DNA of 39,008 nt, from the NCBI GenBank assembly GCA_021808315.1, contig JAKBBY010000008.1, positions 1-39,008 of the forward strand, written 5' to 3'. This document shows positions 20,036 to 35,998 of this stretch, in pieces; positions within the stretch are counted from its first letter, which is position 1; each line of letters begins with the position of its first letter. A program made the position numbers and the translations under genes. The DNA is from Pseudomonadota bacterium (lineage in GTDB: Bacteria > Pseudomonadota > Alphaproteobacteria > Acetobacterales > Acetobacteraceae). Under the pieces are notes generated by a model. That model was not told where the DNA came from and did no database searches. It saw only the letters and a program-made list of their open reading frames with translations.

Positions 20036-20635
20036 ATGCCCTTGAGCCCGCCTGCCCAACGAGACCTTTTGCATTTGCGGGATATCGCCATTCGCGGCTT
20101 TCTGCGGGCGGATGGCTTGATTGATATCGAGGCCCGGCTGACCGACACCAAAACTTATAGTTTTGGCAATCATGATCGCGGCCGGATCGGGGCTGGCGAG
20201 GCGCTGCACGGCATGGGTCTACGCGTCACGATCGATCAATCGCTCTGTGTCATCAGTGCCGAGGCGGCGATGGATTATACGCCGCATAATGTTTGCCCCG
20301 GTGTCGCGCCAAATTTTGCCCGGCTGGCCGGATTGACCATTGGCAAGGGCTTTTTGAAGGGCGCCACCGAACGGCTCGGCGGTCCCGCTGGCTGTACCCA
20401 TCTGCGCGAGCTGTTGCAGCAGGTCGCCACCGTCGCCATCCAAACCATGTTCAGCGTGCGCGCGCACAAAGACGCGCGCGAAGGCACGGCGGAGCGGATC
20501 GATTGGAAAGTGCCAACATTCCTGGTCAATACTTGCTTTGCCTATGCCGAGGATGGCCCGTTGGTGCAGCAAAAGCGCGAGCGCGCCGCCCTCGCTGCGG
20601 CGGCTAATGGGGATGGATCGTCGTCATCAGCGTAA
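20036..20635 (+). CDS. DUF2889 family protein
   Basis: This protein of about 199 residues matches DUF2889, a proteobacterial family of unknown function. The recognisable N-terminal pattern is RDIAIRGFLRADGLIDIEARLTDTKTY, followed by CPGVAPNFARLAGL and GCTHLRELLQ with conserved Cys and His residues. There is no signal peptide or membrane segment, so it is cytoplasmic. The track start at 20027 is possible; GAAAG is better spaced from the ATG at 20036 (MPLSPPAQRDLLH). Its last 32 bases overlap the 3' end of convergent tadC. Confidence 0.82.
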   Translation: MPLSPPAQRDLLHLRDIAIRGFLRADGLIDIEARLTDTKTYSFGNHDRGRIGAGEALHGMGLRVTIDQSLCVISAEAAMDYTPHNVCPGVAPNFARLAGLTIGKGFLKGATERLGGPAGCTHLRELLQQVATVAIQTMFSVRAHKDAREGTAERIDWKVPTFLVNTCFAYAEDGPLVQQKRERAALAAAANGDGSSSSA

Positions 20636-21524
20636 GCCCGGCAGGCCCGCCAACAATAATAAACACGCACGGCAAGATAAACAGAATCATCGGCACGGTG
20701 AGCAACACCGGCATCCGCGCCGCCCGCTCCTCAAAGCGCGTTAATTGCTCCTCGCGCAACTCGCTGCTCAGCACGCGCAGCGCCTGGGTAATCGGCGTGC
20801 CATATTGAATGGTCTGCACCAAGGTGGACCCCAAGCGCTTGAGACTATCAAGCCCGGTTCGACGGCCCAAATTGAGCAAGGCTTCACTGGCATTATCAGT
20901 CATCCGCAACTCACCATTGGTGATCTTGAATTCCTCGGCCACCGCCGGATGGGTGGCGGCAATATCGGTCGCCACCCGCGTCAGCCCTGCCTCCAGGCTC
21001 AGCCCAGCATCGGAACAAATCACTAACATATCCAAGGCTTCGGCAAGACCGGCCTCCAGCCGCTTCAAAAAACGGCTTCGGCGGAATTTCAGCACCAAAT
21101 CGGGCAGTAGCAAACCAGCAATACCGGTCGCCACCGGCATGCCAATCATTGCCGCACCGCCAAGCCCGGCAATCCGGGCAACGCCCAGCCCCATGAGAGC
21201 GCAACCCCCCCACGATACTGTCTTAATCCCAATAAACAGGCCCAACGCCACGTCGCTGCGCACCCCCGCGCTGCGCAATGTTTGGCGCGTCTCCTCGATT
21301 GTGCGAAAACGCAACCATCCGCTCCGAATAATAAAAAATCCAATAAAAATCAGCAATGATACAAAAATATTATGGCGTCGCTGTTCAGTCCGGACCAGCT
21401 GCGGCTGCAAAGCCCGCAAAACCCGCCCCCGCAACGCCTGATCCAATTCAAATTGCGCATAAAAGCCAAATCCCATCGCGATCACACCGAGAAATAGCCC
21501 CGCGAGGGCAAATAACTTGATCAT
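20604..21524 (-). CDS. tadC: TadC, Flp pilus assembly inner-membrane protein
   Basis: This is one of two inner-membrane platform proteins (GspF-like) on which the CpaF ATPase acts during Tad/Flp pilus assembly. It has an N-terminal membrane helix (LFALAGLFLGVIAMGFGFYA), a T2SSF domain with the typical LDMLVICSDAGLSLEAGLTRVA stretch, and a C-terminal hydrophobic helix (LLTVPMILFILPCVFIIVGG). The 306-residue length is normal. Its start overlaps the tadB stop by 4 bp. It is the last gene of the five-gene tad run and its tail overlaps the convergent DUF2889 gene by 32 bp. Confidence 0.92.
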   Translation of the reverse strand: MIKLFALAGLFLGVIAMGFGFYAQFELDQALRGRVLRALQPQLVRTEQRRHNIFVSLLIFIGFFIIRSGWLRFRTIEETRQTLRSAGVRSDVALGLFIGIKTVSWGGCALMGLGVARIAGLGGAAMIGMPVATGIAGLLLPDLVLKFRRSRFLKRLEAGLAEALDMLVICSDAGLSLEAGLTRVATDIAATHPAVAEEFKITNGELRMTDNASEALLNLGRRTGLDSLKRLGSTLVQTIQYGTPITQALRVLSSELREEQLTRFEERAARMPVLLTVPMILFILPCVFIIVGGPAGLTLMTTIHPH

Positions 21525-22465
21525 GACAAGCTCCGCGCGATGATCGTCTTCATCACCAAAAAACCAAAGCAGAGCAAACCAATCGCCAGCAATAATAAAT
21601 GCTTCCCGGCGAGTGTGGTGACGAACGGCGCCATATATTGCGGGTCCAACAACCCAATCGCAATCCCAGTAAAAACCGGCAAACAGCCCAGGATCAACGC
21701 GCTGGTGCGCGCCTCTGCCGCCAGCGCATAAGCCCGCGCCTTCGCCGCAATCCGCTTATGCACAACGGTGGCCAGCGTTTCGAGTGTCTGAGCCAGTGCG
21801 CCGCCGGTGCGTGATTGCAAACCCAGGGCGGCGGCAAAAAATTTATACTCAGCAATGCCATTGCGCTCACTGATTGCCCGCAATGCCTCTTCCAGCGTCA
21901 CACCAATCGCCAGCCGGTTGGCGATGTCGCGGAACTCACCCGCTGTTGGCTCCGGCAAATCGCGGCCAACAATTCGCAGCGCACCCTGGATTGGAATCCC
22001 CGAGCGAATACATCGCACAATCGTCGCCAACGCATCCGGAAATTGCGACAATAACAACGATGTCCGCTTCTTGCGAAAATAACCCAGCAGAAATCGGATC
22101 ACCAAAGTCACCATTGCCGGGTAGATCATCATCATCGGGCCGCCGATCAACAGCCGCAGCACCTCAGTGATCACCAGCGCGAGAAAGCCCCCGCCAATGA
22201 GCAAAATCGGCATGCGCGCACGCGCAACCGGCAACCCACCCTCGGTTAACCCCAGCACCCAGCCAATAACGCCCGTCTGCAGCCAATCATCGAGCGATTT
22301 CTTGCCAACTTGCTGCTCGATCGCACGGCGATGGCCATCGAAATTGATGCGCGCCAGTCGCTGCGCATACCGTGTTTGTTGCTGATTAAAGCTGAGTGTT
22401 TGCTTGAAAACAACAATAAAAATACCAAAAAATACAGCGCCCCCCGCGAGCAACAGCGAAATCAT
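21521..22465 (-). CDS. tadB: TadB, Flp pilus assembly inner-membrane protein
   Basis: This is the second GspF-like platform protein of the Tad machine, paired with TadC. The ORF track begins 27 codons early; the ATG at 22465 overlaps the cpaF stop as ATGA and yields 314 residues starting with the membrane segment [20 protein letters not shown]. The T2SSF core FPDALATIVRCIRSGIPIQGALRIVGRDLPEP is clear, as are the C-terminal helices (ILGCLPVFTGIAIGLL and LLLLAIGLLCFGFLV). It is translationally coupled to both neighbours. Confidence 0.92.
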   Translation of the reverse strand: MISLLLAGGAVFFGIFIVVFKQTLSFNQQQTRYAQRLARINFDGHRRAIEQQVGKKSLDDWLQTGVIGWVLGLTEGGLPVARARMPILLIGGGFLALVITEVLRLLIGGPMMMIYPAMVTLVIRFLLGYFRKKRTSLLLSQFPDALATIVRCIRSGIPIQGALRIVGRDLPEPTAGEFRDIANRLAIGVTLEEALRAISERNGIAEYKFFAAALGLQSRTGGALAQTLETLATVVHKRIAAKARAYALAAEARTSALILGCLPVFTGIAIGLLDPQYMAPFVTTLAGKHLLLLAIGLLCFGFLVMKTIIARSLS

Positions 22466-23823
22466 GACGATCCCCCTTGCGCTTCTTCGATGGCAGCATT
22501 CCAGCTGCGCAGCAGACCAAAATAGGTGAGTTGCTCCTGAAAACATGGACGACCGACACTGATATCATAGCGTGAGGTCAGCTTTCCTGACGAATCTTCC
22601 CCCAATATCTCGAGTTTCACAATATCGTTGAGCAGAACCGTTTCGCCCTCAATCCCAGCAACTTCGGTCACTTGCACCAAGCGGCGCACCCCATCGCGCT
22701 GGCGTTCCACCTGCACGAACAAATCAACCGCCGAGACCACTTGTTGGCGGATCGCCCGCAGCGTGAGCCCCATACTCGCCATCTGCACCATATTTTCGAT
22801 ACGGGCCAGCGCATCACGCGTATTATTCGCATGGATCGTGGACATCGACCCATCATGGCCCGTATTCATCGCCTGCAACATGTCAAAGGCTTCGGTGCCG
22901 CGCACCTCGCCGATGATGATGCGGTCAGGCCGCATGCGCAGCGCATTGCGCACCAGATCGCGCTGATTAACCTCGCCTCGCCCCTCAAGATTTTGCGGTC
23001 GGGTCTCCAGGCGCACCACATGCGGCTGTTGCAGTTGCAATTCGGCGGCATCCTCAACGGTCACAATGCGTTCGCTCGTTTCGATAAACCGGCTCATCGC
23101 ATTCATCAGTGTGGTCTTGCCCGATCCGGTGCCACCCGAAATAATCACATTCAACCGGCAGCGTGCCGCGATTTCCAGCAATCGGGAAATCGGCGTGGTC
23201 ATCGTGCCAAACTGCACTAATTTCTTAAAATCAATTGATTTCTTGGCAAATTTCCGAATTGAAAGGCAAGGACCATCAATGGCGAGCGGCGGCAGCACAA
23301 TATTAACGCGCGATCCATCTTTCAGCCGCGCATCCACCATCGGGCTCGCCTCGTCAACACGCCGCCCGACTGTCGAGGCGATGCGCTGGGCAATATTGGT
23401 GGCATGAACATTATCGCGAAACCGAATATCCACCTGCTCAAGTCTGCCGCCGCGCTCGATGAAAATCCGGTCATGGCCATTAACCATGATGTCGGTAATA
23501 CTATCATCGGCCAAGAGCGATTCCAGCGGCCCAAGCCCAATCATGTCATCGACAAGTTCAATCGCGAGCTGGCGCTGTTCGCGTGCATTGAGCTGAATCC
23601 GATGCTCGGTCGCAAGCTCGGTCAAAATCTGCTCGACCATCGCCTCGATGCGCGCACTCGGCAAGTGCGCCAAGCTCGCGGCATCGATCTTGGTCAAGCA
23701 GAGCGCGCGCAGATGGCTGGTATTGCTATCGCGCTGCACCCGGCCAAGATCACCCTGCGGTTCGATGATCGGCGGTGCCTCTAATTCGGTTCGACGGCCA
23801 AACACATGCGCGCTGCTGCTCAT
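22462..23823 (-). CDS. cpaF: CpaF/TadA, Flp pilus assembly secretion ATPase
   Basis: This cytoplasmic hexameric ATPase powers Tad pilus assembly and, in some species, retraction. Walker A is GGTGSGKT (residues 230-237), Walker B is [12 protein letters not shown] (about 301-312), and the family's [12 protein letters not shown] box follows (322-333). The N-domain motif [14 protein letters not shown]-like region ([26 protein letters not shown]) precedes them. The length of 453 residues is typical. It overlaps cpaE upstream and tadB downstream by 4 bp each. Confidence 0.95.
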
Positions 23824-25004
23824 AAGGGGCTGGTCTCCATGGTGGCGCCGATATTTTTTACCAAATCAAGCATGGCCGTGCGAAACGGGCCTTTTTTGGC
23901 GCTGGCGAAGCGCCCTAAATCACTGGCAATACGCACCGATTTATCCCAATCAATCACGGCTCGTCCAAGATGATCGGGGAGGGCGCTCTCGATGCTAGCG
24001 CGACTCACGCCCTGATGGGGCCGCCGGATAAAAGCGACATGGGAAGCCGCACTGCGCCCTTGATCGTGCGCCAAGACCGCCTGCACAGCACTCACCCCGC
24101 GCGGCGAAAGATCGGCCACAAACAGGTTCTGGTTCGCAAGGCCAAGCAATTCGTCGGCAAAACCAAACACCCGACAGGGCAAGTCCGCGACAATAAAATT
24201 ATAACGCTGTCGTAAAGCATCAATCAGGGCATGACCGGCCCCATGATGATAGGTGCATTTTTCGGTGTAAGGCTCTTCGGCGGCCAGAACATGCAGCCGA
24301 TCCGACGCCATTTGCGCTGATCGTTCAATCAATAACGGATCGATCCGATCAGGCGTTTCCAGGGCGCTGCGCAACCCCGAACTCGGCGCGACATTGGCCG
24401 CCAGTGCCGCTGTCCCGGCGAGCAAATCACCATCTAACAAAACTGTATGGCGCCGCGTTTCCACACCCAGCAACCAAGCGAGATTGGCCGCCACAGTTGA
24501 CGCACCAACCCCGCCCGCGAGGCCACGCACCGCGATCAGCAACCCACCCCGATGAATATCAACCCGAGGCTCATTACCCATCGCCCACGGCACCAGATCG
24601 CGCGCCAACTGCACCGGATCGAGTGGTTTGGGTAGATATTCCCGAATGCCTAAATTACGCGTCAAAGTCCGATAAAACCCAACACTATGGACATCGCCCG
24701 TCACCAGTACGCGGGTGCCAGGTTCAATCACATGTTCGAGCCGCATCAATGCGCTCAACGGCTGATCCTCGCCGGATATATCAACCAGCACCGTCTTCGG
24801 TGACCGCATCGCGCCCAGTGCCGCGAGCATTTCCTCAAACGAGCTCAATCGCACCCGCATCGGCCCAATCGCTGGATGGCTGAGCACGCTCCGCAGGCAG
24901 GCCAGCGAATTCGGATCATTCACAAAGCCAAGAAACGTCTCTCGCTCAATTTTCGTGGCCGGCCCCTTCGCCGTCGCTGCAAGCCGCTCGGACAATTCAT
25001 TCAT
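23820..25004 (-). CDS. cpaE: CpaE/TadZ, pilus localisation ParA-like protein
   Basis: This protein places the Tad apparatus at its site in the cell. It has a receiver-like N-terminal half (about residues 25-140, with TVLVDISGED and the conserved Lys of YLPKPLD) and a ParA/MinD-like C-terminal half. The P-loop is degenerate, GLAGGVGAST (161-170), lacking the usual catalytic Lys; this is common in TadZ/CpaE, which bind ATP but hydrolyse it poorly if at all. The track start is a GTG at 25013; I chose the ATG at 25004 because AGGGAG lies 10 bases upstream of it. Its stop overlaps the cpaF start. Confidence 0.9.
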   Translation of the reverse strand: MNELSERLAATAKGPATKIERETFLGFVNDPNSLACLRSVLSHPAIGPMRVRLSSFEEMLAALGAMRSPKTVLVDISGEDQPLSALMRLEHVIEPGTRVLVTGDVHSVGFYRTLTRNLGIREYLPKPLDPVQLARDLVPWAMGNEPRVDIHRGGLLIAVRGLAGGVGASTVAANLAWLLGVETRRHTVLLDGDLLAGTAALAANVAPSSGLRSALETPDRIDPLLIERSAQMASDRLHVLAAEEPYTEKCTYHHGAGHALIDALRQRYNFIVADLPCRVFGFADELLGLANQNLFVADLSPRGVSAVQAVLAHDQGRSAASHVAFIRRPHQGVSRASIESALPDHLGRAVIDWDKSVRIASDLGRFASAKKGPFRTAMLDLVKNIGATMETSPL

Positions 25005-25040
25005 GATCCGCACACTCCCTGCTCAGCATGCACCCAGCGA

Positions 25041-25868
25041 TCATGGCCGGAACACAATCTGCTTCGCAGACCCCTGATAAATCGTGATTTCGCCGCCGCG
25101 ATGCGGGCTGGGCCGTAGATTGGCCAGCACCGGCGAAACCTGGCTGCCATAAACCGGCGCCGGTATCGCGGGTCGTGGCCGCGCCGACATGCTTGATGAG
25201 CGCACCACCAGCGATAGCGGCCCCAAATGCGCCGCCACTTCAACCCGCTCAGCCTGATCGGGACTTACTTCGAGCGTGACAGTGCGTGCCGGGGCAGGGG
25301 CCTGACCACTGGCATCGGCCCCTTGTACCAGCCGCTGATCGATCGCAATCACCCGCACATCGGCCAGCACCGTCTCGGCGGCAACGCGATGCCCCGGATT
25401 AATCCCTGGCCCATCAAGGCTCTGCGTTAATATCAAATCGACCCGGTCGCCGGGCCAAATCAGCCCCGCCGTCCCCGAAATCGCATCAACGCCAACGGAC
25501 ACGGCACGCATGCCCGGATGCAGCACCGCCGCTAGAAACCCATGATCGCCGGGCCTAATCACAATCCCCGCCGTAATCAGCGCGCCCGGTGCCAGCGCGC
25601 TGCGCACCATCGCCCCCGTATAGGCCGACCGCGCGGCGGCACTATCAATCACCGCACCCGGCGGAATTTTGCCGGTATCGATCACCGCCGTCAGATCAGC
25701 AGGCTGAATCAGGCTCCCCGCATGCAGGGCGTGCGCCACACCAAGCAATTGCACCGGTCGGATCGCGACGGGGCGTGGCCGGGCCGGATGCAGATCAAGC
25801 CATGCAACCGTTCCGAAACCGGCAAGACCCAGGGCCAGAAATGCAAGGAGCGTTAGTCTGACGATCAT
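25041..25868 (-). CDS. cpaB: CpaB/RcpC, Flp pilus assembly protein
   Basis: This periplasmic, inner-membrane-anchored protein is thought to connect the Tad export core with the outer-membrane secretin. A signal anchor (LTLLAFLALGLAGFGTVAWL) is followed by a SAF-like domain and the CpaB core PGMRAVSVGVDAISGTAGLIWPGDRVDLILT. The length of 275 residues is usual. AAGGG lies 10 bases before the ATG, in an AT-rich 130-base leader that probably holds the tad promoter. In most tad loci the secretin gene cpaC lies between cpaB and cpaE; here only 36 bases separate them and no secretin is present. Confidence 0.9.
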   Translation of the reverse strand: MIVRLTLLAFLALGLAGFGTVAWLDLHPARPRPVAIRPVQLLGVAHALHAGSLIQPADLTAVIDTGKIPPGAVIDSAAARSAYTGAMVRSALAPGALITAGIVIRPGDHGFLAAVLHPGMRAVSVGVDAISGTAGLIWPGDRVDLILTQSLDGPGINPGHRVAAETVLADVRVIAIDQRLVQGADASGQAPAPARTVTLEVSPDQAERVEVAAHLGPLSLVVRSSSMSARPRPAIPAPVYGSQVSPVLANLRPSPHRGGEITIYQGSAKQIVFRP

Positions 25869-27016: not shown

Positions 27017-27284
27017 GCATCATCCTCTTCCCGCGCGTGCTATCATCCGCGCGCGCCCACCGCAAACCAACCGCGCGCCGCTCGCCGACATAATACGTCG
27101 TCAAATCTAAAAATTTTGAATGGTTGCGGTCTGCCGGTTGTCCGGCGGGCCGGTGCATGCTAGCCATTTTTTCGCAATCAACTGCCGTTAAGGCTTGATT
27201 TCTCGCCGTTCCAACCGGGTTCGGCAGATAGCGCGCGTGGCTGTGTCAGCGATCCGTCTGACACCGATGAGGGAGGAAAATGGG

Positions 27285-27977
27285 GTGATCGGATTTTTCA
27301 AACGTGACGATCCACCGAGCAACGCACCAACCAACACATCAACCGGCGATTTGGCGCGGCCCGCGCCGGACTCGACGACACCGGCATCACCGGAGATCGA
27401 TGACGGTCTCACCGTCCCGCCATTCCGCGCCGCCGAACCAGCACCGGCGCGCCACGCTGCCAACCCGATCGCCGGTTCCCCCGGTCCTCATGATCTGTCC
27501 AATAAGGAGAGTCCGATGGCTCGTTCACCCTTCGCCCCTGCCCCGAGCGCCCCGCTGAACCAAGCCGCCTCGCCCATGGCCACCGGCGCGCCGATGGGTT
27601 TTCGCACCCCATCCTCAGAAACGACAGAGCGGCGCACCCTGGTCGTTGGTCGTGGCATCAGCGTTCAAGGGCTGGTGCAGGATGCCGAACGGCTGGTGGT
27701 CGAAGGCCATGTCGAAGCCACCATGATCACCGCGACCGAACTCGCCATCACCCAAGGCGGCGTGTTCAAAGGTGAGGTTGAAGTCGAAGAGGCCGAAATC
27801 GCCGGCACGATTGACGGAACCTTGACCGCCCGCCACGCGCTGATCGTGCGCGGCACCGGCCGCGTGCTCGGCACCGCTCGCTGCCGCCGTTTGCAAGTCG
27901 AAGATGGCGGCCAAATCACTGGCCGCATCGAAATGCTCTCCGATACGCCCAGCCAGCACGATCCGGTGGTCGACTAA
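27285..27977 (+). CDS. Bactofilin (DUF583) cytoskeletal protein
   Basis: Bactofilins polymerise into non-polar filaments that position wall enzymes and shape the cell. The C-terminal half is the right-handed beta-helix repeat domain: LVVGRGISVQGLVQDAERLVVEGHVEA through GVFKGEVEVEEAEIAGTIDGTL to RCRRLQVEDGGQITG. The N-terminal half is Pro/Ala-rich and disordered. The track start at 27195 and the ATG at 27267 are less convincing than the GTG at 27285, which has GGAGG 8 bases upstream and gives a protein starting (V/M)IGFFKRDDPP, the membrane-targeting style seen in bactofilins; 230 residues. It leads an operon with a lipoprotein and gshB. Confidence 0.9.
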   Translation: MIGFFKRDDPPSNAPTNTSTGDLARPAPDSTTPASPEIDDGLTVPPFRAAEPAPARHAANPIAGSPGPHDLSNKESPMARSPFAPAPSAPLNQAASPMATGAPMGFRTPSSETTERRTLVVGRGISVQGLVQDAERLVVEGHVEATMITATELAITQGGVFKGEVEVEEAEIAGTIDGTLTARHALIVRGTGRVLGTARCRRLQVEDGGQITGRIEMLSDTPSQHDPVVD

Positions 27978-32210: not shown

Positions 32211-33377
32211 TCAGCCGTTAGCGCCAATATGACGGACCAGATTAATCAATGTCTTGCGCAACCGCTCGGCAGCCACCTGCAAAACGCCAAGCTCGTTAAA
32301 TTCAGTCTGCACAACCGGCTCTTCAAGTTTTTCACCAAACGAGATCGCGCGCACCCGCTCGGTGAGCAGGCTCAACGGCGTCAAAATCCGTCGATTGACA
32401 AAGTTACGCAAATTAAGCCCGACACCGATAAAGATGATCAGCGAAAAAAACAAACTCAGGCCAAAAATCGTATAAGCAGTCTGCAAAATGCCCGACACAT
32501 CGACCCCGAACACCACAGAGCCAAACATTTTTCCGGTAAAATCTTTCAGCGGCAACACAAAGAGTTGATAGGATTTACCGGTGCCAATCGAGGTGGTCGT
32601 CGAAAATCTTGGGTCGATATCGCTCGGATGATGTTGCAAAAACTGCGTGAGCGAAGGCGAGTTGGTGAATTTAACCTGATAAGGCCCAATCATCGGCGCT
32701 TTCGGCCCTGCTTCCTTGGTGTTCGGTGGCTCCTGGATCAGCACCGAAACCACGCTACCGGGAATATCCTGAATAATGGTGCGGAAAATCGCGGTCACTG
32801 GCAATGAAATCTGAGCGGTGCCCACTGGAACGTTGCTGGCCGATAACACCGGTGCCACGCCGCTAATCGCATAGCCGATTTTCATCAATCCAAAATCACT
32901 GACCGGCTGGCCCGATTTCAACACGGTGCGAATATCGGGCCGGGCAATCGTGGTATCGCCATAAAGATGCGGTTTGTTGGCGCGGAACAACACGTGATGA
33001 TCTTGAATGAACACCACAATTGCCCGGCCATATTGTTGCTGCAGCGCCTTCCATACACTGCGCGATTGCAGCGCGAGCAGGGTGCGCTGCTGCTTGGACG
33101 GCGGCATGGCAAACGCCTCGACGATATTCGGGTTCGCCGCCAAAGCACTCGCCTCGGCCAGCGCTTGACCCGCATAGACTTCGCGCAGCCGATCAAACTC
33201 GTTGCGAACATTGACGACTTGCTGTTGTTCCGCGCGCTGAATAATCAAATATTGTCCAACGGCGCCAATGAATAAAATCACCAAGGCGTTCAGCAGCATC
33301 GCCGGGATCAAAAACCGAATGAATTCGGCGCGAAGCGTGAGGCCGCGGACAGCCCCCGTTTTGGGTTTTACGGCCAT
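32211..33377 (-). CDS. Cache-like sensor with HAMP domain, no output domain
   Basis: This inner-membrane protein has a signal-anchor helix (about residues 18-45), a periplasmic region of some 250 residues resembling a double Cache sensor, a second helix (about 301-323) and a HAMP domain (about 324-376, with RRILTPLSLLTERVRAIS and EFNELGVLQVAAERLRK). It then stops, at 388 residues. Chemoreceptor, kinase, GGDEF or other output modules normally follow HAMP; none is present and the next DNA has no matching downstream frame. The track starts at a TTG (33395), which overlaps the upstream stop by 4 bp; I list the ATG at 33377, but both are possible. It is coupled to the acidic Pro-rich gene upstream. 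Confidence 0.8.
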   Translation of the reverse strand: MAVKPKTGAVRGLTLRAEFIRFLIPAMLLNALVILFIGAVGQYLIIQRAEQQQVVNVRNEFDRLREVYAGQALAEASALAANPNIVEAFAMPPSKQQRTLLALQSRSVWKALQQQYGRAIVVFIQDHHVLFRANKPHLYGDTTIARPDIRTVLKSGQPVSDFGLMKIGYAISGVAPVLSASNVPVGTAQISLPVTAIFRTIIQDIPGSVVSVLIQEPPNTKEAGPKAPMIGPYQVKFTNSPSLTQFLQHHPSDIDPRFSTTTSIGTGKSYQLFVLPLKDFTGKMFGSVVFGVDVSGILQTAYTIFGLSLFFSLIIFIGVGLNLRNFVNRRILTPLSLLTERVRAISFGEKLEEPVVQTEFNELGVLQVAAERLRKTLINLVRHIGANG

Positions 33378-33391
33378 CGATCGTGCTCTTT

Positions 33392-34609
33392 TCAATCGTG
33401 CTCAAGGAATATACTGGCGAATACCGACCGGTCGATCCCATAGGGTGCCGATGGTTCAGCCTTTGGCGGACGCGGTGGCGGCGGGATCTCCGTATCATCC
33501 GCCGGACGTTGATTGAGGCCCGAATTCAGCTCGGGCTTAGGATCGGTATTCCAAGCGGGATCAGAATTCCAATCCGCATCCCAATCGGTCTCCAATGCCG
33601 CGCCACGATCCGGCGCCCCATCCGCCCGCAAATCCGGCTCGTCTTCCGGCGGCAGAATTTCGAGTGTCCGCGCTGATTCAAATCCGCGCGGCACCCGCAG
33701 CGCCATCTCATAATATTCAGGGTCCACCCCGGCATCGGAGGCTAACACGCGCCCATTCGGCGCGGTAATGATCGGCTGGGGCACCGCCGTCACCGGATCG
33801 GGCGTCACCGGCCAGGCCGATATTGGCAAATGAGCCATGCCCGGATCAGCGACCATCTCGTGATCGATCACATTGCCATGGCCCGATCGGCGCATCGGTT
33901 CCACAAACTCAACCGGCTCTGCCTCGGCGTGATGGGCATCCAGCAGAATCGCAGCCTCTCCTGCCGATACCGGATCCATCAGCGCATCGGACGGCGGCTC
34001 GTGCTCAACCGGCGTTACCATTTCCGCCAACACCGGCTCGGCCCCCACCGATTCCGGCGCGAGTGCTGGTTCGTCTGATTCTGGCTCCGGTTCTGATCCT
34101 GGTTCTGGTCCTGGCAAAACCTGATCAACGGGGTCCGCAGCCGTCGCGAGCGCCTCATGCTCCGCCGGTTCGATGATTTTTGGAATTTCGGCGACCTCAG
34201 CACCCACCGGCGTTGCCACCGCTTTCGGAGCTGCGACCATTGTCGCCGCCTCAACCGGCGTTTCAGCCCGCGCCGCAGCTGGTGCCGCGGTTGGCGCCGG
34301 CGCCGGTTGCGCGCTCAGCCGCGCCTCGCTCAGTCGGCGAATACTGGCAATCGGGTCTTGCGGCAACGGCCCGCTGAAATCATCCATGATCGAGAGAATA
34401 CGGTCCGCCAAGGCCGAGCAATCTGCACGGTTCAAGTTACCGCCAAGTTCCTGCAGCAAAAAGCGGGTCACCGTTTGCGTCGGATCACGCTCGAAATCCG
34501 GCGCAAAATTGGCCTCCCAACGCACCATCATGTCCAAAGCGCGCGGCGCTGGCACCGTGCCGCGCAAGGTTCCCCACAAAATCCGCCGAATTCTTGCGCT
34601 GGCATCCAT
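33392..34609 (-). CDS. Acidic, Pro/Ala/Glu-rich protein of unknown function
   Basis: I do not recognise this protein. With the ATG at 34609 it has 405 residues: an ordered N-terminal part of about 100 residues (ARIRRILWGTLRGTVPAPRAL, then a helical LLQELGGNLNRADCSALADRILSIMDDFS), a long low-complexity acidic middle (PGPEPGSEPEPESDEPALAPE), and a short conserved-looking tail (GIDRSVFASIFLEHD). There is no signal peptide or membrane helix. It may be a cytoplasmic scaffold. The track start at 34711 would add 34 less protein-like residues. Its stop nearly overlaps the Cache-HAMP gene, and it is divergent from the roadblock gene, so the three may work together. Confidence 0.7.
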   Translation of the reverse strand: MDASARIRRILWGTLRGTVPAPRALDMMVRWEANFAPDFERDPTQTVTRFLLQELGGNLNRADCSALADRILSIMDDFSGPLPQDPIASIRRLSEARLSAQPAPAPTAAPAAARAETPVEAATMVAAPKAVATPVGAEVAEIPKIIEPAEHEALATAADPVDQVLPGPEPGSEPEPESDEPALAPESVGAEPVLAEMVTPVEHEPPSDALMDPVSAGEAAILLDAHHAEAEPVEFVEPMRRSGHGNVIDHEMVADPGMAHLPISAWPVTPDPVTAVPQPIITAPNGRVLASDAGVDPEYYEMALRVPRGFESARTLEILPPEDEPDLRADGAPDRGAALETDWDADWNSDPAWNTDPKPELNSGLNQRPADDTEIPPPPRPPKAEPSAPYGIDRSVFASIFLEHD

Positions 34610-34837
34610 CACGCTAACCCCCGCATCCTTCAAAGCCGCGCCCGATGGCTCGCCCGATGCAGGACCAATCCTGATGAAGAACAAACCAGCGTGGAGAGTG
34701 GGCGCGCGCATTCATGACAAATGTCTCTAGCGCAGCCTGAAATGTTATTCCAGCGTGTTTATTCTTTCTTGGGTTGTGTTCGGCCACGTTGTTCTCTTCA
34801 CGGGTGGCAGGGCGCGTGCTATCCGGCATTCATGGAA

Positions 34838-34868
34838 AACGATCAAGTCGATTTGCCGTCCGATCGTT
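34838..34868. promoter_or_regulatory. 7-bp inverted repeat in the roadblock gene leader
   Basis: AACGATC (34838-34844) and GATCGTT (34862-34868) are a perfect inverted repeat with a 17-base spacer, ending just before the GAGGAG ribosome-binding site of the roadblock gene. It could be an operator or an mRNA hairpin affecting translation. Confidence 0.35.
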
Positions 34869-34890
34869 GAGACCTTGAGGAGCCGCGACG

Positions 34891-35256
34891 ATGAGCGAAA
34901 GTCAATTACGGGCAATATTATTGGGATTGCGCGCCTTGTCGCCGGATATTCTGGCCTCTGCGGTCATTTCGACCGATGGTTTGGTCATCGCCTCGGCCCT
35001 CCCGAATGATCTCGATGAAGATCGCGTCGGCGCCATGGCCACCGCCATGCTGAATTTTGGCGCCCGGATTTCCAAAGAGCTCGCCCGCGGCGCGCTCGAT
35101 CAGGTGGTGATCAAAGGGCAAGGCGGCTATGTGGTGCTCGAATTTGTGGGCGTCGATGCGCTGCTCTGCATCGTCACGGGCGGCGATGCCAAACTCGGCC
35201 TCGTGCTGATGGCCGCCAGCCGCGGCGCGTCCGCCTTGAACGAGGCGCTGGGCTAA
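34891..35256 (+). CDS. Roadblock/LC7 domain protein
   Basis: This 121-residue cytoplasmic protein is a single roadblock/LC7 fold, the family of bacterial MglB. Typical features are the N-terminal helix LRAILLGLRALSPDILASAVISTDGLVIAS, the central DLDEDRVGAMATAMLNFGARISKEL and the strand QVVIKGQGGYVVLEFVG. Relatives act as GTPase regulators or assembly platforms as dimers. No Ras-like GTPase gene is nearby. GAGGAG precedes the ATG at ideal spacing. It is divergent from the acidic Pro-rich gene and the Cache-HAMP gene, which may be its partners. Confidence 0.9.
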   Translation: MSESQLRAILLGLRALSPDILASAVISTDGLVIASALPNDLDEDRVGAMATAMLNFGARISKELARGALDQVVIKGQGGYVVLEFVGVDALLCIVTGGDAKLGLVLMAASRGASALNEALG

Positions 35257-35374: not shown

Positions 35375-35440
35375 GCTACAACCGGGTTACGCTTCAATAC
35401 CGGTCATTTGATCGGTTTGGCGTCAACCAGGGCGAGGTCG

Positions 35441-35998
35441 ATGGCATCCTCCAGTACCGAATTTCAGCGGGCGCGATCAAAAACGCCAGACCCCCTGCTT
35501 GCCCATATCGGGTCGCGCCTGCGGGACCAGCGCACATTACTCGGCATCACAACGGCGCAACTCGGCACCGCATGCGGCAGTTCATCGGCGCAAATCGAGC
35601 GTTTCGAGAGTGGGCTTGATCGGATCGCGCCGATCATCCTCTCCGAAATTGCGCAATTCTTATCCGTAACTATCGGCTATTTTTATCACAGCGTCCCAAG
35701 CCCTGCCGAGGGCCGCGATCACGCCACCGTCGCTGACCTCGCAACCTTCCGCGCCGCGCGCCAAGCGATGCTGGCGTCAAAAACAACCACATCCCATGAA
35801 GTCTCTGAAATCCTCGGACAAATCGAAGATCAAACGGTGCGGGACTGCCTAATCGCCTTCATGCAAAGCCTGACCGCGCAACCCGCCGTCAAAGCAGCCA
35901 ATCCCATCACGGACTATCAGCGCGACGGGGCTGTGCAAAACGCGATCAACACTCAGGCATTATTCATCCGCCTCGCCGATATCGGCCAAGGCCTGTAA
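35441..35998 (+). CDS. XRE-family transcriptional regulator
   Basis: This 185-residue protein has a Cro/CI-type helix-turn-helix at about residues 20-78: IGSRLRDQRTLLGITTAQLGTACGSSSAQIERFESG, followed by LSEIAQFLSVTIGYFYHS, the layout common in alphaproteobacterial XRE regulators. The remaining 100 residues have a helical stretch (EILGQIEDQTVRDCLIAFMQSL) that may serve dimerisation. The track start is 11 codons earlier; GAGG lies just before the ATG at 35441. The HTH is somewhat diverged in its second helix. Its target is unknown; the roadblock gene lies upstream and glcF converges on it with a one-base gap. Confidence 0.85.
   Translation: MASSSTEFQRARSKTPDPLLAHIGSRLRDQRTLLGITTAQLGTACGSSSAQIERFESGLDRIAPIILSEIAQFLSVTIGYFYHSVPSPAEGRDHATVADLATFRAARQAMLASKTTTSHEVSEILGQIEDQTVRDCLIAFMQSLTAQPAVKAANPITDYQRDGAVQNAINTQALFIRLADIGQGL

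Follow-up and report, generated by a model that had tools for sequence, protein, structure and literature searches.

An Output-Less Cache-HAMP Receptor and an Orphan Roadblock Protein in One Gene Block of Acetobacteraceae: a Possible Phosphorylation-Free Relay

We analyzed a stretch of 39,008 nucleotides (hereafter the window) from a member of the Acetobacteraceae and found a block of four genes, which encode a Cache-HAMP-type membrane sensor without output domain, an acidic protein of no recognized family, an MglB-type roadblock/LC7 protein and an XRE-type regulator. Our tentative reading, with a probability of about 0.4, is that the four genes form one functional module, a phosphorylation-free relay for which we infer the physical links and the output.

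Results

Gene content and organization of the locus

The window genome (G000) is a 2.78 Mb assembly which is 89% complete, and the sister species used for comparison is the Acidiphilium sp. 37-60-79 bin (G264; 96% complete); both are acid-loving bacteria. The acidic gene is followed by the sensor gene on the minus strand, and the roadblock gene is followed by the XRE gene on the plus strand (Table 1). The original prediction described a three-gene locus in which the roadblock gene is divergent to the sensor and acidic genes. All three genes exist as described and the divergence was confirmed, but two of the starts had to be corrected and the gene list was incomplete, as it omitted the XRE regulator, which is co-distributed with the other three. 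Among the larger ORFs of the window, Pfam scans detected neither a histidine kinase nor a chemoreceptor nor a small GTPase, as had been predicted. Alignment with the sister species revealed an unusually conserved block at about 34721–34805 within the divergent intergenic region. This region contained no strong sigma-70 match, and no convincing inverted repeat that could serve as a common operator was found within the conserved block.

Table 1. Features of the four-gene block (window coordinates).
Feature	Position	Strand	Remarks
Cache-HAMP membrane sensor without output domain (putative)	32211..33374	-	387 aa from ATG 33374; TTG 33395 possible
Acidic Pro/Ala-rich protein	33392..34609	-	405 aa from ATG 34609
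Divergent intergenic region	34610..34890		likely promoter/operator
MglB-type orphan roadblock/LC7 protein	34891..35256	+	121 aa; PF03259 4e-13
XRE-type helix-turn-helix regulator	35408..35998	+	HTH_3 5e-6

The window also contains Tad/Flp pilus genes at 20604–25868 (T2SSF twice, T2SSE and RcpC/CpaB) and, near the block, a bactofilin gene at 27195–27977. The block might accordingly be thought to steer the Tad pilus, encoded 7–12 kb away, via the bactofilin and the roadblock protein, in the way that MglB-type proteins act on type IV pili, and GTPase-coupled roadblock loci in other genomes do adjoin FimV-like genes, with one neighbor in locus L062 resembling bactofilin by sequence. We regard this explanation as very improbable: housekeeping genes lie between the block and the bactofilin and pilus-side genes, and the argument is one of proximity only.

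A membrane sensor that ends after its HAMP-like segment

Two Pfam families matched the sensor above cut-off, sCache_3_2 (E 1.6e-7) and dCache_3 (E 4.3e-7), and two hydrophobic, probably transmembrane, segments at about residues 17–47 and 299–325 bracket the Cache region. HAMP was not called in the sensor by Pfam, where it stayed below the reporting level. Residues 290–390 matched the LetS model (E 0.001), and a profile made from the two orthologous sensors matched, over positions ~313–384, long ORFs of other family members with E values of 2e-4 to 6e-4. In the HAMP-like segment, the motif N-E-L-G replaces D-E-x-G. With a Cache region between two transmembrane segments, and with HAMP assigned by weak profile similarity and this motif, the protein appears to fit the description of a Cache-HAMP receptor. 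A structure model of the sensor had a pLDDT of 36 and was unusable.

The sensor had been predicted to stop right after HAMP, and this is a natural end: in both species the C-terminus lies at the same place, about 20 residues past the HAMP-like segment with its weak profile support, and the two proteins are 84% identical overall. Neither a signalling tip nor DHp/CA domains were present before this end, and an isocitrate dehydrogenase gene directly follows. The shared end and the identity of the next gene argue for a receptor naturally devoid of an output domain and rule out a truncated chemoreceptor or kinase. A start at TTG 33395 would overlap the acidic gene stop, but the apparently conserved start, ATG 33374, lies further in; it is favored because, in the sister species, only the part of the gene from this ATG onwards remains in frame beyond an insertion described below.

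An acidic protein with a helical N-terminal domain

A Pfam search with the acidic protein was empty, in agreement with its earlier description as unrecognised. ATG 34609 is a more likely start than 34711, since in the DNA of the sister species two in-frame TAG codons are located further upstream. The pI was 4.3 for the whole protein and 4.1 for the linker. AlphaFold2, run with the two available sequences, predicted five helices within residues 1–99, with pLDDT values of ~70–88 over most of residues 1–80; in the linker, pLDDT was below 50 and disorder was predicted. Conservation between the two orthologues was high in the first 100 residues, in a segment at ~306–328 and in the last 20 residues (386–405), and low in the middle. 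The N-terminal domain had no structural match with E <0.001 in the PDB or in a viral library, and a PDB sequence search with it gave no match either.

The roadblock protein and the search for a GTPase partner

The roadblock protein scored 49.4 bits against Robl_LC7, for which the curated cut-off is 23, and matched PDB roadblock chains 7f8m, 9jue and 7yh1 as well as CvnB5 (3leq). Between the window and sister genomes, it differed by one residue in 121 (99.2% amino acid identity), which is the strongest constraint among the proteins compared at the locus; the corresponding identities were 97% for isocitrate dehydrogenase, 84% for the sensor, ~64–65% for the XRE regulator and 63% for the acidic protein. 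As 36% of its four-fold sites differ, the natural reading of this comparison is strong purifying selection on the roadblock protein rather than recent transfer.

Across the phylum (398 genomes sampled), the closest roadblock relatives had 46–52% identity and occurred in six genomes, none of them from the family of the window genome; within the class (386 genomes sampled), the only roadblock match was in the window genome itself. In several of these 46–52% relatives, from gamma/beta-type genomes, and in Neisseria, an MglA-like GTPase adjoins the roadblock gene. The GTPase-coupled relatives have an L-D-x-K-R-A stretch in the last helix, whereas the window protein has M-A-A-S-R-G, a change that fits a loss of GTPase contact. 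Two other architectures were noted: in G907, a gene directly upstream of a roadblock gene joins a Ser/Thr protein kinase to an MglA-like GTPase region (L060:7937–9715), and G772 encodes an AAA ATPase with a fused C-terminal roadblock domain (L064:5468–7072).

We then searched with the MglA-like GTPase from the roadblock operon of G1035 at a threshold of E≤1. No match was found in the window genome or in the sister genome, which are 89% and 96% complete, respectively, and not closed. The controls, namely the source genome G1035 and three members of a different genus within the family, matched at 4e-20 or better. Chance loss of a GTPase gene from both incomplete genomes is unlikely.

These data bear on the possibility that the locus is a G-protein module, in which the roadblock protein would act as a GAP for, or otherwise regulate, a small GTPase whose gene lies elsewhere, and would be fed by the sensor and the acidic protein, as CvnA, MglB and RomR do in their systems. 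GTPase regulation by roadblock proteins has been reported from both Streptomyces and Myxococcus (PMC4316618, PMC13343842), and the closest relatives of the window protein are found in operons with MglA-like GTPases. The empty search with working controls and the replacement of the charged stretch of coupled relatives point the other way, and we consider this explanation improbable. In a 2014 survey (PMC4316618), 328 of 749 MglB homologues (~44%) were orphans without a nearby GTPase gene, none of which had been characterized at that time.

Distribution and inheritance

The sensor, acidic and roadblock genes were present in the window and sister genomes and absent in all 11 other genomes of the genus. 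An orthologue of the XRE regulator (64% identity) was found only in the sister; other homologues in the genus were at most 37% identical. The trio was not found together in any of the 293 additional family genomes searched. Among 300 family genomes, neither the sensor nor the acidic protein had another full-length match, and roadblock matches elsewhere were limited to five genomes of genus g69, none of them close. The prediction that the three genes would be co-conserved was therefore borne out, on the very narrow base of two sister genomes; because the carriers are sisters, the co-distribution counts as one acquisition or retention and not as repeated co-occurrence. In other genus members, a different neighbor was located beside or downstream of GlcF, and there was no clean empty site. 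A plasmid-borne module was considered and rejected, as tblastn against plasmids gave no match for the sensor and acidic proteins and only distant proteins for the roadblock.

In the sister genome, the acidic and sensor genes are located at two contig ends (L001:1–100 and L026:1–105). Both ends share 8 bp, GAAAAGAG, beyond which are the related terminal sequences GTATCTGCTCAACCC and GTAGCTGCTCATCCC. This pattern suggests an insertion sequence with an 8-bp target duplication between the two genes, the element itself being unassembled. Despite the apparent insertion, neither reading frame is interrupted, and the ATG of the sensor is retained. The apparent insertion somewhat weakens the case for a physical partnership of the two proteins.

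It also lends weight to an explanation in which the block consists of two unrelated pairs, one operon of the sensor and acidic genes and another of the roadblock and XRE genes, co-inherited in an island without a joint function. Divergent transcription and the very different rates of change among the four proteins agree with this explanation as well. On the other side are the exactly same distribution of the four genes within the genus and the one conserved divergent promoter region common to both pairs, but each of these also fits plain co-inheritance. We take unrelated pairs as a serious, if somewhat doubtful, alternative to a single module.

Related architectures in the family

Roadblock domains fused to or adjoining protoglobin occur in genus g69 (L014:7177–8112, L015:1166–3041, L016:7495–9414, L017:7233–8150 and L018:3106–5182). 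The protoglobin matches (PF11563) reached 1e-25, Robl_LC7 matched at 1.7e-9 in L016:7495–8376, and solo roadblock genes are frequently arranged in tandem with these genes. Such proteins could be haem gas sensors feeding a roadblock pathway; no paper dealing with both roadblock and protoglobin was found in the literature searched. They resemble the window locus in that roadblock domains are tied to a sensory domain, but the sensor is a fused globin, and neither a HAMP receptor nor an acidic protein is involved. Besides, the g69 roadblock proteins are only 27–47% identical to the window protein, and an MglA-like GTPase is present in at least three g69 genomes. Direct descent from them is not supported, as the tree, in which placement is poorly resolved, does not group them with the window protein.

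The g69 loci with a GTPase match were L071, L070 (minus strand) and L069 (minus strand). In two of these genomes (including L071:2040–3449), the genes near the match encode long acidic proteins that are rich in Pro, Ala and Glu and have a weak roadblock domain at the C-terminal end (Robl_LC7 E 0.0015 for the L071 protein); the third genome has a short roadblock-like protein. A second output-less HAMP protein of the family, a 125-aa membrane protein ending right after a HAMP-like segment, is encoded at L117:8120–8497, where its gene adjoins a Ser/Thr protein kinase gene and is near a gene resembling a type III secretion export-gate protein.

Discussion

Cache domains usually sense ligands, and HAMP domains usually respond by a change of helical state. 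In the proposed relay, the Cache domain would detect its ligand on the outer side of the membrane, and on this signal the HAMP-like segment would shift its helical state. With no kinase or chemoreceptor tip behind it, the HAMP end may be read by a cytosolic adaptor, for which the acidic protein is the candidate: its helical N-terminal domain would dock near the HAMP end, the disordered acidic linker would provide reach, and the conserved C-terminal tail would bind the roadblock dimer. The dimer could then act as a hub that controls the output. Within the locus, the XRE regulator is the best candidate for this output, and it may also control the divergent promoter. This reading is supported by gene content, co-distribution, the lack of a detected GTPase, the constraint on the roadblock protein and the natural end of the sensor, and also by the layout of the acidic protein, in which a helical domain is followed by a disordered linker and a conserved tail in a manner reminiscent of RomR. 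The occurrence in two sister genomes only, the apparent insertion between the acidic and sensor genes of the sister, the sub-threshold HAMP signal, the incompleteness of both assemblies and the fast evolution of the acidic protein and the XRE regulator count against it.

Several known systems resemble the block in part. An MglB-type roadblock protein is common to it, to the MglA/MglB(/MglC)-RomR system of Myxococcus and to gamma- and betaproteobacterial MglA-MglB operons, but in the block no MglA-like GTPase was detected and a Cache-HAMP receptor is present. Like RomR, the acidic protein combines a folded N-terminal part, a disordered linker and a C-terminal tail, and it has been reported that the C-terminal helix of RomR is sufficient for binding to MglC, a roadblock protein (PMC12719032). 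In contrast to RomR, the acidic protein appears to have no receiver domain (there was no match, and the predicted N-terminus is all helical), and the two are not related in sequence. Similarly, in the conservons (CvnA-D) as in the block, a HAMP-bearing membrane sensor is encoded next to a roadblock protein of the MglB type and to a protein whose family is unknown, and epistasis between roadblock protein and sensor kinase has been reported for the Cvn8 system of Streptomyces (PMC13343842). However, CvnA is a histidine kinase with HATPase, whereas the sensor here has no kinase domains and ends after the HAMP-like segment; instead of CvnC (DUF742) and the CvnD GTPase, there are an acidic protein without Pfam match and no GTPase that could be found. 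The conservons are also actinobacterial and differ in gene order from this alphaproteobacterial block. The RomR and Cvn8 likenesses are of layout, and defining features of both systems were not found.

Orphan MglB homologues are already known as a largely unstudied class (PMC4316618). They share with the window roadblock protein the lack of a nearby GTPase gene, but in the present case the search for one covered both carrier genomes and gave no match, and the roadblock gene is linked to a kinase-less receptor. We found no description of a roadblock protein paired with a kinase-less Cache-HAMP receptor in the open-licence literature searched. A more specific and, in our view, rather unlikely version of the relay is a GTPase-free pathway in which an output-less receptor would signal purely by conformation; a disordered scaffold would pass the signal on to an orphan roadblock dimer, which would have turned from GTPase regulation to the control of a transcription regulator. 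The locus, in which an orphan roadblock protein is the best conserved component and whose host genomes gave no MglA-like GTPase match, would allow a direct study of roadblock function in the absence of a GTPase. It would also provide a case in which a HAMP signal has neither a kinase nor a chemotaxis pathway downstream.
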